A stretch of 64,000 nt of DNA. It comes from Hyphomicrobiales bacterium (GTDB lineage Bacteria; Pseudomonadota; Alphaproteobacteria; Rhizobiales; Beijerinckiaceae). The stretch's first letter is position 1. Each line of letters begins with the position of its first letter. Shown here one piece after another: positions 57,414 to 63,149 of this stretch. The DNA lies in the NCBI GenBank assembly GCA_019247795.1, contig JAFBAK010000245.1:34724-98723 (forward strand), in the 5' to 3' direction. The notes under the pieces were generated by a model. It did no database searches, was not told where the DNA came from, and saw nothing but the letters and a program-made list of their open reading frames with translations. Made by a program: the position numbers and the translations under genes.

Positions 57414-58232
57414 TCAGGGCTTCGCGCGGGACACCTCCTCCGGCTCCTCGTCCAATCGAACGATGATGCCCTCGAGCTCCCGCTTCGGCGCTTGGTAGCG
57501 GTTCATGACCTGCGGATCGTGGCCCGGAATGATGTGCGCCGGCGAGGAGGCGAGCTCGCGCAAGCGACGGTAGCCTTCGAGCACGTCGCCGACATGAAAG
57601 ACGATCGGGAACACCCGCCCCTCTTCCATGTTCGCGTAGTAATGGCTCGCATCCGACGCGAGCACCATCCATCCGCGTCGCGTCCACACACGCACGACTT
57701 GAAGGCCGGCAGAATGCCCCCCGATCGGATGCAGGGTGAGGCCCGGCGCGAGCTCCGCCGGCGCATCGTGGAAGAGGACGCGTCCGCGATAGACCTCACG
57801 CACGAGGCCGACCACGTTCTCGACATCGAAGGCGCCGTTCATCGCAGGGTGGCACATGTGACGTCCGGTGGCATAAGCCATCTCCTGGTCCTGAAGGTGG
57901 AAGGTCGCGCGCGGGAAGCGGTTGAAGTTCCCGATATGGTCGTAGTGCATATGGGTGATGATCACGTCCTTGATCTCGCCGGCATCGAGCCCAAGATGCT
58001 TCAGGCTCTCGGCCGGGCAACGGAGGAATTTTCGACCTCTGCGGGCGGCCGTCTCGGCATCGAAGCCGGTATCGACGATGAAGCTCTGCCGCTTGCCGAG
58101 GACGACCCAGACGAAATAGTCCATCCCGATCGGCCCGGCATGCGGATCGCCGCCGATGAAGACCTCGTCTCCCCGGCGATCCACCGACGCATAGCGAATG
58201 GCGTAGATCTCGAAGGGCTCGAGCGGGCTCAC
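57414..58232 (-). CDS. MBL-fold hydrolase, AHL-lactonase-like
   Basis: 272-aa cytoplasmic metallo-beta-lactamase-fold protein related to N-acyl homoserine lactonases. Metal motif THMHYDHIGN near residue 93, with GGHSAGLQ, SDASHYYANM and PGHDP supplying further ligands. It is last in a four-gene leftward operon with FMO, CMD-like and dehydrogenase genes (ATGA overlap upstream). In that setting a lactone or ester of a catabolic route is as likely a substrate as a quorum signal. Confidence 0.86.
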   Translation of the reverse strand: MSPLEPFEIYAIRYASVDRRGDEVFIGGDPHAGPIGMDYFVWVVLGKRQSFIVDTGFDAETAARRGRKFLRCPAESLKHLGLDAGEIKDVIITHMHYDHIGNFNRFPRATFHLQDQEMAYATGRHMCHPAMNGAFDVENVVGLVREVYRGRVLFHDAPAELAPGLTLHPIGGHSAGLQVVRVWTRRGWMVLASDASHYYANMEEGRVFPIVFHVGDVLEGYRRLRELASSPAHIIPGHDPQVMNRYQAPKRELEGIIVRLDEEPEEVSRAKP

Positions 58233-59176
58233 GCCTCGCTCCCAAGCGCCTTGTGGACAAGCTCGCGATGTGCCGAGCCGTCACCGTCATCCTCCTCGAG
58301 CACCTTGATGACGGCGGTATGGTCCTGCGCGCCTCCTAGCTTGCCTTCCGCCTCGCTCCACAGCTGCGCGCACAGCCGCGTCATGGGCGAAGGCTGACCC
58401 GTCACGGCGGCAAGATCGGCGGCCACGCGCAAATCCTTCGCCATCAGACCCAGCGAGAATCCGGACGCGAAGCTTCGTGAAAGGATGTGCTGCTTGAACT
58501 TGTTTTCCGTGCTGTTGTTGCGCCCCGTCGAGGCGTTGAGGATGTCGACGATTCGCTCGGGCGCAAGGCCGAAACGCTGCCCGACGAGAAGGGCCTCCGA
58601 CGCAATCCAGAGGCCACCGGCGGAAACGAGGTTGTTCAGCGCCTTCATGGCATGACCGGTGCCGAGAGCTCCCGTGAGGAAGACATGTTTCGCCATCGTC
58701 TCGAGAATGGGCCGCACCCGGGCGGTCGCGGCGTCATCGCCTCCGACCATGGTCGACAGCGAGCCATCACGCGCGCGCGGCACGCCGCCCGACACGGGAG
58801 CATCCACGAGATCGATGTTCTTGGCGCGGAGCGTCGCACCGAGCTCACGCGTCCCAACGGGATCGGACGAGCTCATGTCGAGGACGATGCTTCCGGGCGA
58901 CAAACCTTCCGCAAGCCCGTTCCGCCCGAGCAGGACTTCGCGCACCACCTTTCCATCGGGAAGCATGGTGATGACGGCCTCGACGGCGCCGGCGAGTGCG
59001 GCGAGCGATGGCGCAGTCCTTCCGCCATGCACGGCCGCGAAATCCGTCGCGAGCGACGCGTCCTTGTCGGCCACGTGAAGCTCGTAACCGGCCGCTGCCA
59101 ATCTCGCGACCATGGGACGACCCATGTTGCCGAGACCGACGAAGCCGATTTTCGCCGGCGAGACGAGAGCGGTCAC
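58229..59176 (-). CDS. 3-hydroxyisobutyrate dehydrogenase-family NAD(P) oxidoreductase
   Basis: 315 aa beta-hydroxyacid dehydrogenase. Nucleotide loop IGFVGLGNMGRPMV at the N-terminus; DAPVSGGVPRARDGSL near residue 122 is the substrate-binding signature, and the catalytic Lys lies in GTGHAMKALNNLVSAG near 175. The GTG at 59176 overlaps the upstream stop (GTGA); the track start is in the CMD gene. Substrate is a small 2- or 3-hydroxyacid, unknown. Confidence 0.87.
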   Translation of the reverse strand: MTALVSPAKIGFVGLGNMGRPMVARLAAAGYELHVADKDASLATDFAAVHGGRTAPSLAALAGAVEAVITMLPDGKVVREVLLGRNGLAEGLSPGSIVLDMSSSDPVGTRELGATLRAKNIDLVDAPVSGGVPRARDGSLSTMVGGDDAATARVRPILETMAKHVFLTGALGTGHAMKALNNLVSAGGLWIASEALLVGQRFGLAPERIVDILNASTGRNNSTENKFKQHILSRSFASGFSLGLMAKDLRVAADLAAVTGQPSPMTRLCAQLWSEAEGKLGGAQDHTAVIKVLEEDDGDGSAHRELVHKALGSEA

Positions 59177-59559
59177 GTCTTCACCGGTTCGAGCTGCGCA
59201 AACACCTCGCGCGCGCTGCGGAAGCTGTCGACGGCTGCCGGCACGCCGCAATAGATCGCCGTCTGCAAAAGCACCTCGGAGATCTCCGCCTTGCTCAGCC
59301 CGTTGTTGAGCGCGCCCTTGATGTGCAGCTTCAGCTCATGCGGACGGTTGAGCGCGGTGAGCATGGCGAGATTGATGATGCTGCGTGTCTTGCGGTCGAG
59401 GCCTGGCCGATCCCACACGGCGCCCCAGCAATATTCCGTCACCAGCTCCTGCAAGGGGCGCGAGAAATCATCCGCCGCCGCGATGGCGTTGTCGACATAT
59501 TCGGCTCCCAGCACCTCGCGGCGGTTCTTGAGGCCTTTGTCAAAGGTTTGACTTCGCAA
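59173..59559 (-). CDS. Carboxymuconolactone decarboxylase-family protein
   Basis: 128-aa all-helical protein close to PcaC: ITEYC-like LVTEYCWGAVWDRPGLDRKTRSI near residue 37 and EISEVLLQTAIYCGVPAAVDSF near 92. True 4-carboxymuconolactone decarboxylase is one option, but no other protocatechuate genes are present. The TTG at 59559, behind GAGGAG, is chosen; the ORF track continues far into the FMO gene. Second gene of the operon. Confidence 0.84.
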   Translation of the reverse strand: MRSQTFDKGLKNRREVLGAEYVDNAIAAADDFSRPLQELVTEYCWGAVWDRPGLDRKTRSIINLAMLTALNRPHELKLHIKGALNNGLSKAEISEVLLQTAIYCGVPAAVDSFRSAREVFAQLEPVKT

Positions 59560-59585
59560 GACGTTCTCCTCTTCGTGAACAAAAC

Positions 59586-60992
59586 TCAGACCATGGGCGC
59601 GAGCCGGGCCCGTACCCACAGGCGCGCCCGCGCGAGCGGGCTTTCTTTGTGGCGGACCACGGCGCGCGCTCGTGCGGCTCGCAACGAAGCCCGCAATTCG
59701 CGAAAATAACGCAGGGGCTCTTCCTCGATCGTGTGACGCGGCGTGCCGGGGTAATAGCGCTTCACCCATTCCGCCTTGCGCCGGATGGCCGCTTCCATCT
59801 CCGGCTTCGTCGGCAACAGCGCCGCACCCGTCTCGACCGCGACGATCCACGGCGCTTGGCGCTCATAGGCCTGATTCGCGGCCCCGTTCAGGTTGAGCAA
59901 ACCCATGAAATAGAGGCCCGGCCAATCGGGATGCACCATGCGATTGTAGAGGTGAACCACATTGTCCCGCATCGACAGGATATCGGGGGAGAGAAAGGGA
60001 AAATCGATGAGATACCCGGTCGCCGCGATCAGGGTGTCGAACTCCTCGCGAGAGCCGTCGCTGAAGGTGATCACCTTCCCCTCGATGTGTTGGATGTCGT
60101 GCTTCACCTCGACGCGGCGGTAGGCGATGTGCTGCACGATGGTGGCGTTGCTGAGCGCATGAGAGCGGCCTTTGAGCGGCTTGAATCCCAGACGCTCCAT
60201 GGACCCATGGAGCATGCGAATGAGCCCTCGCGTCACCCAGCGCCCCATCCACTCGGGGATCAGAGGGTGGGCCAAGAGCATCGTGACGTCCGTGAACGGT
60301 ATGCCGAAGAAGAGCTTCGGCGCGATGCGCACGCCCGCACGCGCCACGATCACCGTTCTTGGCGTGACTGTCGCTAGATCGCTCGCGATATCGCAAGCGC
60401 TGTTCCCGACGCCGACGATGCAGACGCGCTTGCCGACGAAAGGCTCAGGCTCCTTGTAGTCATGCGAGTGCAGATAATGGCCGGCGAAGTTTGCGAGCCG
60501 CGCCACGTGAAGCGGTTTGCTCAGATGTCCGCTGCAGACTACGACCGCATCGAAAATGCCACCGTTGCCGTTGTCGGTGTCCACCTGCCATCGATGACGA
60601 TCCGAAACCCTTCCCTCGGCTGGGCGCACGCTCGTGACCCTGGACTTGAAGCGGATCAGCGGACGAAGCCCGAAATTCTCGACGAAGCTCGTGAAATAGG
60701 CGTGCATGTCGCGATGGCTGGGAAAAGGCTGCATCGCCTCGGAAAATTTGAAGTCTCTAAAATTCGTGAGCTTCTTCGCCGTATTGATGTGGAGCGTCTT
60801 GTAGGCGGAGGACAGGCCATTGTCATTGTTGAAGCACCACAGCCCGCCGACTTGCGTGCCGATCTCATAGACCGTCACCTCGAAGCCGGCTTCCTTGAAA
60901 TAACGGGCCGCGCACAGGCCTGAAGCTCCCGCCCCGATGATCGCCACGCGTCTCGATGGGCTTCGCACCGCGTCGCTTCTCAACTCATCCAT
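59586..60992 (-). CDS. Flavin-containing monooxygenase
   Basis: 468-aa FAD/NADPH monooxygenase. FAD loop VAIIGAGASGLCAARYF at residue 18, FMO fingerprint FAGHYLHSHDY near 168 (ending in Tyr rather than the Baeyer-Villiger Trp) and the NADPH loop VCIVGVGNSACDIASDL near 187. Hydroxylates N, S or activated carbon. First gene of the four-gene operon; the next gene starts 26 bases on. Substrate unknown. Confidence 0.9.
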   Translation of the reverse strand: MDELRSDAVRSPSRRVAIIGAGASGLCAARYFKEAGFEVTVYEIGTQVGGLWCFNNDNGLSSAYKTLHINTAKKLTNFRDFKFSEAMQPFPSHRDMHAYFTSFVENFGLRPLIRFKSRVTSVRPAEGRVSDRHRWQVDTDNGNGGIFDAVVVCSGHLSKPLHVARLANFAGHYLHSHDYKEPEPFVGKRVCIVGVGNSACDIASDLATVTPRTVIVARAGVRIAPKLFFGIPFTDVTMLLAHPLIPEWMGRWVTRGLIRMLHGSMERLGFKPLKGRSHALSNATIVQHIAYRRVEVKHDIQHIEGKVITFSDGSREEFDTLIAATGYLIDFPFLSPDILSMRDNVVHLYNRMVHPDWPGLYFMGLLNLNGAANQAYERQAPWIVAVETGAALLPTKPEMEAAIRRKAEWVKRYYPGTPRHTIEEEPLRYFRELRASLRAARARAVVRHKESPLARARLWVRARLAPMV

Positions 60993-61208: not shown

Positions 61209-61655
61209 ATGAGACGTTTGGCTGCGATGGCACTGTGTCTGATCCTGTGCGGATGCGGCACGAAAGACGACAAGGTGGTGGGACTCGACGTTCGCCAACT
61301 CTCACCGGCGGAGCAAGAGGCCTTGCGCCGCTCCTTGTCGCAATCGCTCAAGGAGCCCGACGCGGCGCAGTTCAAATGGATGCCGGTGCTCGTCGGCCCG
61401 AGTGGGAAAGCAACCAATTATTGCGGCCTCATCAACGGCAGGACCAACACGGGCGCTTTCTCGGGCTTTCGAAAATTCGCCGCCGTCATCGCGCAGAACT
61501 CGAGTGGCGCTTTCGATCACGGCGTGATCCAACATGTCGAAGGGGCGCCGGCCATGTTCGAGTCGTCGTCCGGCATTGGGGACCAATCATCTGCGGGAAC
61601 GACGACGGAACTCTGCAAATCCTGGGGATATGTGGAATTCAATCAAGCGAAGTGA
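61209..61655 (+). CDS. Putative lipoprotein
   Basis: 148 aa from the ATG at 61209 (GAGAGGAAAT in front; the track start is upstream). Lipobox LCGC near residue 16. Mature region: LSPAEQEALRRSLSQSLKEPDAAQFKWMPVLVG, then NYCGLINGRTNTGAFSGFRKF and a last Cys in ELCKSWGY. The NYCGLING...GFRKF pattern occurs in small bacterial secreted proteins of unknown role. Not linked to neighbours. Confidence 0.78.
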   Translation: MRRLAAMALCLILCGCGTKDDKVVGLDVRQLSPAEQEALRRSLSQSLKEPDAAQFKWMPVLVGPSGKATNYCGLINGRTNTGAFSGFRKFAAVIAQNSSGAFDHGVIQHVEGAPAMFESSSGIGDQSSAGTTTELCKSWGYVEFNQAK

Positions 61656-61700
61656 GGGAAAGCGAAGGGCGGCTTTTTGGGACGGCGTCTCGTGATTGTT

Positions 61701-61731
61701 GCCGCACGCAGGTTCGCCTCGTTCGTGCGGC
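61701..61731. repeat. Hairpins in the gap before the methyltransferase gene
   Basis: GCCGCACG/CGTGCGGC forms an 8-bp stem with a 15-base loop here, and CCTGGCG/CGCCAGG (61768-61785) a 7-bp stem with a 4-base loop further on. No T tract follows either. They may end the lipoprotein transcript; I cannot match the gap to a known riboswitch. Confidence 0.4.
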
Positions 61732-61922
61732 GTGAAGCCTCCGCAAAGGGTGTTGAAGCACGCGCGCCCTGGCGCACCCGCCAGGCTGCACGATTCGCTC
61801 GCTGACGTTCTTGCTCGACTTCCAATACCTCGATTATTCTTGCCGCTGTTCGCGACGGCAAAGGTTCACTGCGTTTGACGCGGACGATCACATGGGCGGG
61901 AACGATCTCGAAAGGACAGGAC

Positions 61923-63149
61923 ATGGCGAGGAAGAGGGCGAGCGGGAGGACGAAAGCCAAGACGGGTTCGGGTTCGAGGTTGAGGTCGAAGTCCAAGACT
62001 TCCGCCAAGACGACCGCGGTGAAGGGGCGCCCCACGGCAGCCCGTAGCGCCAAGGCGCGCACGACCAGGGCGTCTGTAAAAAAGCCGCCGTCGTCGAGAG
62101 GCGCCGCGAAAGCGCGCAAGGGACTTCTCGAGCGCCTTTCTGAAGGGCCGGTGATCTGCGCCGAGGGTTATCTTTTCGAGTTCGAACGGCGCGGCTATCT
62201 GCAGGCCGGCGCCTTCGTGCCCGAAGTGGTGCTCGAGCATCCCGAGCTTGTCGAAAGCCTGCATCGCGATTTCGTGCATGCCGGCTCGGATGTGGTCGAA
62301 GCCTTCACCTATTATGCACATCGCGAGAAGCTGAGGATCGTCGGGCGCGAGAAGGATCTCGAACGCATCAATCGTCAGGCGCTGCGCATCGCCAAGAAGG
62401 TCGCGAAAGAGACGGGTGCGCTTCTCGCCGGCAATATCTGCAACACCAACATCTACGATCCGGGCGATCCGCAATCGCACAAGGCCGCTCAGCGCATGTT
62501 CGACGAGCAGATCGGCTGGGCTGTCGAGAACGGCGTCGATTTCATCATCGGTGAGACTTTCAGCTACACGGCCGAGGCGGAACTCGCCGCGAAATCCATC
62601 AAGAAGAGCGGGCTGCCTGCGGTCGTCACGCTCGCGGTTCACAAGGAGCCGGTCTCGCGCGAAAACCTCCCGCTCGGCGAAGCGGCGAAGCGCCTCGAGG
62701 CAGCGGGCGCCGATGTTGTCGGCTTCAATTGCATCCGCGGTCCCTGGACGATGCTGCCGCTGCTCGCCGACGTGCGCGCGGCCGTCAAATGCCACGTGGC
62801 CGCGCTTCCCGTGCCTTACCGCACGACGCAAGAGGAGCCGACATTTCAGTCGCTCAACGACGCGCACTGGCACGATTTTCCGGAGGGGCGACCTTTCCCG
62901 ACCTCCCTCGATCCCTTCGTCTGCAATCGTCACGAGATCGGCGAGTTTGCCAAGAAGGCCTACGCGATCGGCGTGCACTATCTCGGTGTCTGTTGTGGAG
63001 CGGGACCGCACCATATTCGCGCCATGGCCGAGGCGCTCGGCCGGCAGCCTCCGGCCAGCCGCTACTCGCCCGACATGACGAAGCACGCCTTCTTCGGCAG
63101 CAACAAGCGCCTGAAGGCTCACAATATCGCCTACGCCGGCCGGCTTTGA
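61923..63149 (+). CDS. Homocysteine S-methyltransferase-family protein with basic N-terminal tail
   Basis: 408 aa. Residues 1 to about 70 are almost only Lys, Arg, Ala, Ser and Thr (SKSKTSAKTTAVKGR and similar), like a histone H1 tail. From about residue 75 comes a TIM-barrel homocysteine methyltransferase domain: VICAEGYLFEFERRGYLQAG, zinc-ligand Cys in VVGFNCIRGP and the CC pair in YLGVCCGAGPHHIRAMAEAL. Methyl donor unknown (betaine or S-methylmethionine types are options). ATG 61923 behind AGGACAGGAC. Confidence 0.86.
   Translation: MARKRASGRTKAKTGSGSRLRSKSKTSAKTTAVKGRPTAARSAKARTTRASVKKPPSSRGAAKARKGLLERLSEGPVICAEGYLFEFERRGYLQAGAFVPEVVLEHPELVESLHRDFVHAGSDVVEAFTYYAHREKLRIVGREKDLERINRQALRIAKKVAKETGALLAGNICNTNIYDPGDPQSHKAAQRMFDEQIGWAVENGVDFIIGETFSYTAEAELAAKSIKKSGLPAVVTLAVHKEPVSRENLPLGEAAKRLEAAGADVVGFNCIRGPWTMLPLLADVRAAVKCHVAALPVPYRTTQEEPTFQSLNDAHWHDFPEGRPFPTSLDPFVCNRHEIGEFAKKAYAIGVHYLGVCCGAGPHHIRAMAEALGRQPPASRYSPDMTKHAFFGSNKRLKAHNIAYAGRL

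Follow-up and report, generated by a model that had tools for sequence, protein, structure and literature searches.

A homocysteine S-methyltransferase of the BHMT type was found to carry a translated, strongly basic N-terminal tail of 66 residues in the window, a stretch of 64,000 nucleotides from a genome of Hyphomicrobiales (Beijerinckiaceae). The tail is evolutionarily young and was grown stepwise in one well-supported clade, and neutral simulation indicates that its positive charge has been retained beyond the expectation from substitution while its sequence varied freely. Its role as a non-specific polyanion tether is proposed tentatively. The features were assigned as follows.

61923–63149, forward strand: BHMT-like open reading frame of 408 amino acids, with ATG at 61923
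61907–61925, forward strand: conserved translation-initiation block CTCGAAAGGACAGGACATG, with SD-like AAGGA at 61912–61916 and the ATG at 61923
61923–62120, forward strand: polycationic N-terminal tail, 66 residues, net +23, predicted disordered (pLDDT)
62121–63149, forward strand: predicted homocysteine S-methyltransferase (BHMT-like) (beta/alpha)8 barrel, from GLLERL to the stop codon (PF02574)
62730–62732, forward strand: Cys270, equivalent to zinc ligand Cys217 of human BHMT, invariant in 64 relatives
62991–62996, forward strand: Cys357-Cys358, equivalent to zinc ligands Cys299 and Cys300 of human BHMT, invariant in 64 relatives

The sequence-only reading had placed the gene at 61923–63149, with about 70 Lys/Arg/Ala/Ser/Thr residues ahead of a methyltransferase barrel, and its coordinates, start and tail were all correct. 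AAGGA and the ATG are separated by a spacer of 6 nt. The 19-nt CTCGAAAGGACAGGACATG is identical across the window's genome (G000), G002 and G003, all of one genus, and the DNA further 5' has diverged among the same three genomes, with indels. For the tail, omega was 0.40, 0.50 and 0.37 in pairs of congeners (bootstrap 95% limits 0.21–0.74, 0.25–0.92 and 0.16–0.72), and for the barrel it was 0.06–0.07 in the same comparisons; length differences between the tails of congeners are in-frame indels. With a conserved SD and ATG, omega below 1 and indels in frame, the tail is translated, and the start, which the earlier reading had left to be checked, precedes it. A start downstream of the tail, by which the ‘tail’ would be an untranslated leader, was rejected on these same observations as very improbable: a codon-usage caller did choose an internal GTG in the window, owing to the atypical codon usage of the tail, but no SD was found ahead of the internal TTG/GTG codons. 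An antisense frame at 61643–62119 (reverse strand) had no Pfam match and was not supported; long open antisense stretches occur in each of the three congeners, but in differing frames, so their openness is uninformative. Misassembly or contamination was rejected for the genus, since synteny with L047 and L002 puts the gene on one and the same side of livF in each.

The complete methyltransferase barrel that had been read after the tail was borne out by PF02574 (S-methyl_trans; 147 bits vs a cut-off of 22) and by a confident AlphaFold2 model built with 64 homologues (barrel pLDDT mostly >90 from residue 71; mean pLDDT 88.2). The best solved relative by sequence was human BHMT 1lt7 (phmmer, E 1e-60) and the best by fold was human BHMT 4m3p (Foldseek, E 1.7e-29, 34% identity), with MetH and MmuM far behind. 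In human BHMT, we take Cys217, Cys299 and Cys300 to be the zinc ligands, Asp26 and Glu159 the acidic residues of the homocysteine site, and Trp44 and Tyr77 the aromatics of the betaine site. Like the cysteines, Glu211 (human Glu159) is invariant in 64 relatives; Glu81 occupies the Asp26 position (a conservative change; Glu in 63/64 relatives), Phe98 the Trp44 position (aromatic kept; Phe or Tyr among the 64 relatives), and Tyr131 is the equivalent of Tyr77 (Tyr in 55/64). The barrel fold and the equivalents of Cys217/299/300, Glu159 and Tyr77 are shared with mammalian BHMT (1lt7, 1lt8, 4m3p, 8d45), whereas Asp26 and Trp44 are replaced by Glu and Phe. The window protein ends 14 residues past the point aligned with residue 334 of 406 in human BHMT and lacks the C-terminal arm (~60 extra C-terminal residues) of the latter, which in turn has a short GGKKAKK ahead of GILERL vs the 66-residue tail. 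No NCBIfam equivalog reached its cut-off for the window protein. NF005718 (betaine–homocysteine S-methyltransferase) matched at 93 bits, which places the protein in the same superfamily as Sinorhizobium Bmt and the MtgE-type homocysteine methyltransferases but far under the 338-bit cut-off. By its residues and fold, the window enzyme is a predicted zinc-dependent homocysteine S-methyltransferase whose nearest counterparts are human BHMT and the predicted Bhmt of SAR11.

The suggested link of methyl supply to chromatin was not borne out by the gene's neighbours (an FMO, a dehydrogenase, a CMD protein, a metallo-hydrolase and a Liv-type ABC transporter) or by anything else found, and no DNA- or RNA-related genes lie beside the ORF in the window. 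The Liv-type transporter is convergent and downstream of the gene, an arrangement syntenic in L047 and L002; in G001 the tail is present and the neighbours are different. A run at 57414–60992 (reverse strand), syntenic in L047, encodes an FMO-like monooxygenase, a CMD-family protein, a hydroxyisobutyrate-dehydrogenase-like enzyme and a metallo-beta-lactamase fold hydrolase, by sequence a putative small catabolic set. No betaine genes were found among the window copy's own neighbours. Among its relatives, 12 loci have an N-methyl amine/sarcosine-type oxidase immediately upstream and 9 have DMGDH-like proteins nearby; other neighbours are betaine ABC parts of the ProW/OsmF kind and regulators resembling GbdR (one of these near L032). 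The Rokubacteria orthologues (L033–L045) are followed downstream by a peptide-type ABC transporter and by FAD proteins resembling sarcosine oxidase. This context supports a family role in glycine-betaine demethylation and makes glycine betaine the most likely methyl donor of the window enzyme. For betaine count the oxidase, transporter and regulator neighbours of relatives and the invariant equivalents of the zinc Cys and Glu159; against it count the change of Trp44 to Phe, the missing human C-terminal arm and window neighbours that are not betaine genes. Full MetH and separate MetH-like modules were found elsewhere in the window's genome (G000:C136:2678-6244, C274:4299-5120, C358:38537-39328); one module matches the cobalamin-domain portion of the model and another is a homocysteine-domain-like protein. 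The genus has MetH plus many GCV_T-domain proteins. Several homocysteine-methylation routes may coexist in the window's genome, and because a full MetH is present the BHMT-like enzyme need not be the sole route to methionine.

Residues 1–66 are rich in Lys, Arg, Ala, Ser and Thr, contain no Asp or Glu (a net positive charge for roughly every three residues), and end at the family-constant GLLERL. In the AlphaFold2 model, pLDDT was <50 at residues 1–4 and 6–46 (mean 64 at 51–60), residues 1–60 had no secondary structure, and no amphipathic helix was predicted. Profile searches with Pfam and NCBIfam found no recognised nucleic-acid motif in the tail; a Zeta_toxin match in Pfam (16 bits, under cut-off) was discarded as noise. 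The tail had been described as histone-H1-like, which holds for its composition (disorder, strong positive charge, much Ala, few hydrophobic or acidic residues) but not for its detail, with Lys and Arg about equal in number, few prolines (3 in 64 residues) and no KPAA/AKP-type repeats in the tail sequence. Net charge per residue was 0.30–0.34 as observed vs 0.16–0.22 under neutral simulation with an equal number of substitutions (P <0.0005 to 0.018 in six non-independent directions), the P values being indicative, since the simulation assumed a substitution model and covered three genomes only. Fewer hydrophobic residues were present than in the simulation (P at most 0.022), and depletion of acidic residues alone was not significant in 4/6 directions. 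Charge that is kept in a sequence free to change is as expected if bulk positive charge matters.

Core matches (112) were compared, and a maximum-likelihood tree that left out the tail was built for 92 of them. Most relatives have 0–12 near-neutral residues ahead of GLLERL, and the wider family is without a long basic tail. Within the window's clade (support 100/99), tail length and charge increase together, as follows.

L032: N-terminal tail of 19 residues, net +2
L031: 31 residues, net +11
L004 (G001), same genus: 28–30 residues, net +11
L047/G003, same genus: 59 residues, net +19
L002 (G002), same genus: 60 residues, net +22
Window (G000): 66 residues, net +23

Tail length ranges over 57–66 residues among the three long-tailed congeners. 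Close relatives, which the sequence-only reading had proposed to inspect for the tail, have it: a basic tail is present in 4/4 genomes of the genus, at its shortest in G001. On the tree, one change is required for tails of at least 28 residues and three for basic tails (net at least +4). Basic tails outside the window's clade were found in Rokubacteria (15–25 residues, +4 to +8; Lys/Thr/Ser-rich in L033–L045), where gene starts are mostly without an SD match and hence less certain, and in one L068 paralogue (15 residues, +6); these shorter tails are separate in origin. A degenerate in-frame repeat in the window's tail (two 25-nt copies, 36 nt apart, 76% identity) suggests that growth may have proceeded by local duplication. 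Among 397 genomes of the window's family, the gene was found only in the four genomes of the genus and in the distant G092 (63% identity), a distribution that suggests gain by transfer.

Among 573 genes called over 684 kb of the window's genome (an approximate count from a home-made gene caller), no other SD-supported Lys-rich N-terminal tail of such size was seen, and a genome-wide habit of basic tails was rejected on that count (1/573). The remaining basic candidates, for the most part rich in Arg and lacking a good SD, resemble spurious 5' extensions of genes. The window's genome has no further copy of the tail, and an origin of the tail by fusion or duplication from another gene was rejected for that reason.

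The favoured reading, a tentative one, is that the tail is a non-specific polyanion tether, its composition being what points to polyanion binding and to an effect on localisation. The barrel would transfer a methyl group to homocysteine on zinc as a cytosolic enzyme, with betaine as the likely donor, while the disordered tail would bind a polyanion inside the cell, be it RNA or ribosomes, DNA, or polyphosphate, and so shift the location or effective concentration of the enzyme with no part in catalysis. The tail is placed outside the conserved mechanism because most relatives are without it. Constraint on composition and not on sequence fits a multivalent electrostatic tether and, less strongly, a solubility-keeping or tolerated extension. 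The tether is favoured by the evidence for start and translation, charge retention, AlphaFold2 disorder, the joint rise of length and charge, and basic tails arising elsewhere; weak constraint, the small number of genomes, the lack of a nucleic-acid motif in Pfam and NCBIfam and the lack of DNA- or RNA-related neighbours in the window count against it. A Lys/Arg tail can also attach to membranes or acidic proteins, or have no specific effect. Lys-rich low-complexity regions of prokaryotes are enriched in DNA-binding proteins (PMC6821194), and the Lys-rich disordered tail of AlgP is required for polyphosphate-granule spacing (PMC9239181). In AlgP, PhaF and Streptomyces TopA, too, a positively charged, Lys-rich low-complexity extension adjoins a different domain (PMC9239181, PMC6821194), but their tails are C-terminal, made of KPAA-type or lysine repeats and attached to DNA- or granule-binding proteins, whereas the window tail is N-terminal, mixed in Lys and Arg, free of such repeats and attached to a metabolic enzyme.

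Nearly as likely, and ranked just below the tether, is that the tail has no dedicated partner: short duplications coding for Lys, Ala and Ser would have lengthened a tolerated disordered N-terminus, with selection only removing hydrophobic or aggregating variants and keeping the protein soluble. The weak constraint (omega 0.37–0.50), the free change of length between congeners (57–66 residues), the degenerate duplication, the absence of the tail from most of the family, and the exclusion of hydrophobic residues as strongly as charge is retained all agree with this, but net charge exceeded the neutral expectation in 6/6 comparisons, tails that are basic and not merely soluble arose about three times, and such tails are uncommon in the window's genome. 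Docking on an acidic protein or the anionic inner membrane, perhaps beside a transporter or a dimethylglycine-consuming oxidase, is unlikely; a positive disordered segment and the syntenic, convergent Liv-type transporter are compatible with it, but the tail has no predicted amphipathic helix and G001 keeps the tail among other neighbours. Tuning of expression by the Lys/Arg-rich first codons or the initiation block, with the peptide incidental, is improbable, since charge exceeds the neutral expectation over the tail as a whole and ~60 residues are not needed for such tuning, even though the 19-nt block and first codons are the best conserved part. A speculative and rather unlikely reading is that the polycationic tail places the synthesis of methionine, and hence of S-adenosylmethionine, on a nucleic-acid or polyphosphate scaffold, recently acquired here and separately begun in relatives.

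SAR11-type Bhmt has already been described (PMC3160333, PMC12478193); the SAR11 enzyme is reported to keep the betaine-binding residues, and its function was stated as predicted, without experimental validation (PMC12478193). SAR11 (Pelagibacter) loci recovered here share 52–55% core identity and the zinc cysteines with the window enzyme, but their start leaves 1–5 residues before the core, the long tail being specific to the window's clade. No paper joining SAR11-type Bhmt or BHMT with an H1-like or lysine-rich extension was found in the open-licence literature; both parts are known, as SAR11-type Bhmt and as bacterial H1-like tails, and their combination on one enzyme appears to be new. The natural length series of this enzyme (0–12, 19, ~30 and ~60–66 residues, with and without a basic tail) lets the role of a bacterial H1-like tail on a metabolic enzyme be studied with ordinary proteins.

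Use of a single Bhmt enzyme has been proposed to be limited to SAR11 (PMC12478193). On the tree, SAR11-type Bhmt homologues were common in Rokubacteria, Chloroflexota/Thermomicrobiota, Actinomycetota and many Pseudomonadota (L031–L110), and they often adjoin dimethylglycine/sarcosine-type oxidases; these look like further candidates for such use. The family is thus broad in bacteria beyond SAR11, soil and groundwater lineages included. A separate homologue, ~30% identical, lies elsewhere in the window's genome (G000:C358). Divergent Bhmt paralogues were also found in tandem, head to tail, in L113, L128, L120, L063 and L068, including small 1.4-Mb genomes, and the members of such a pair may differ in methyl donor or assemble as a heteromer.
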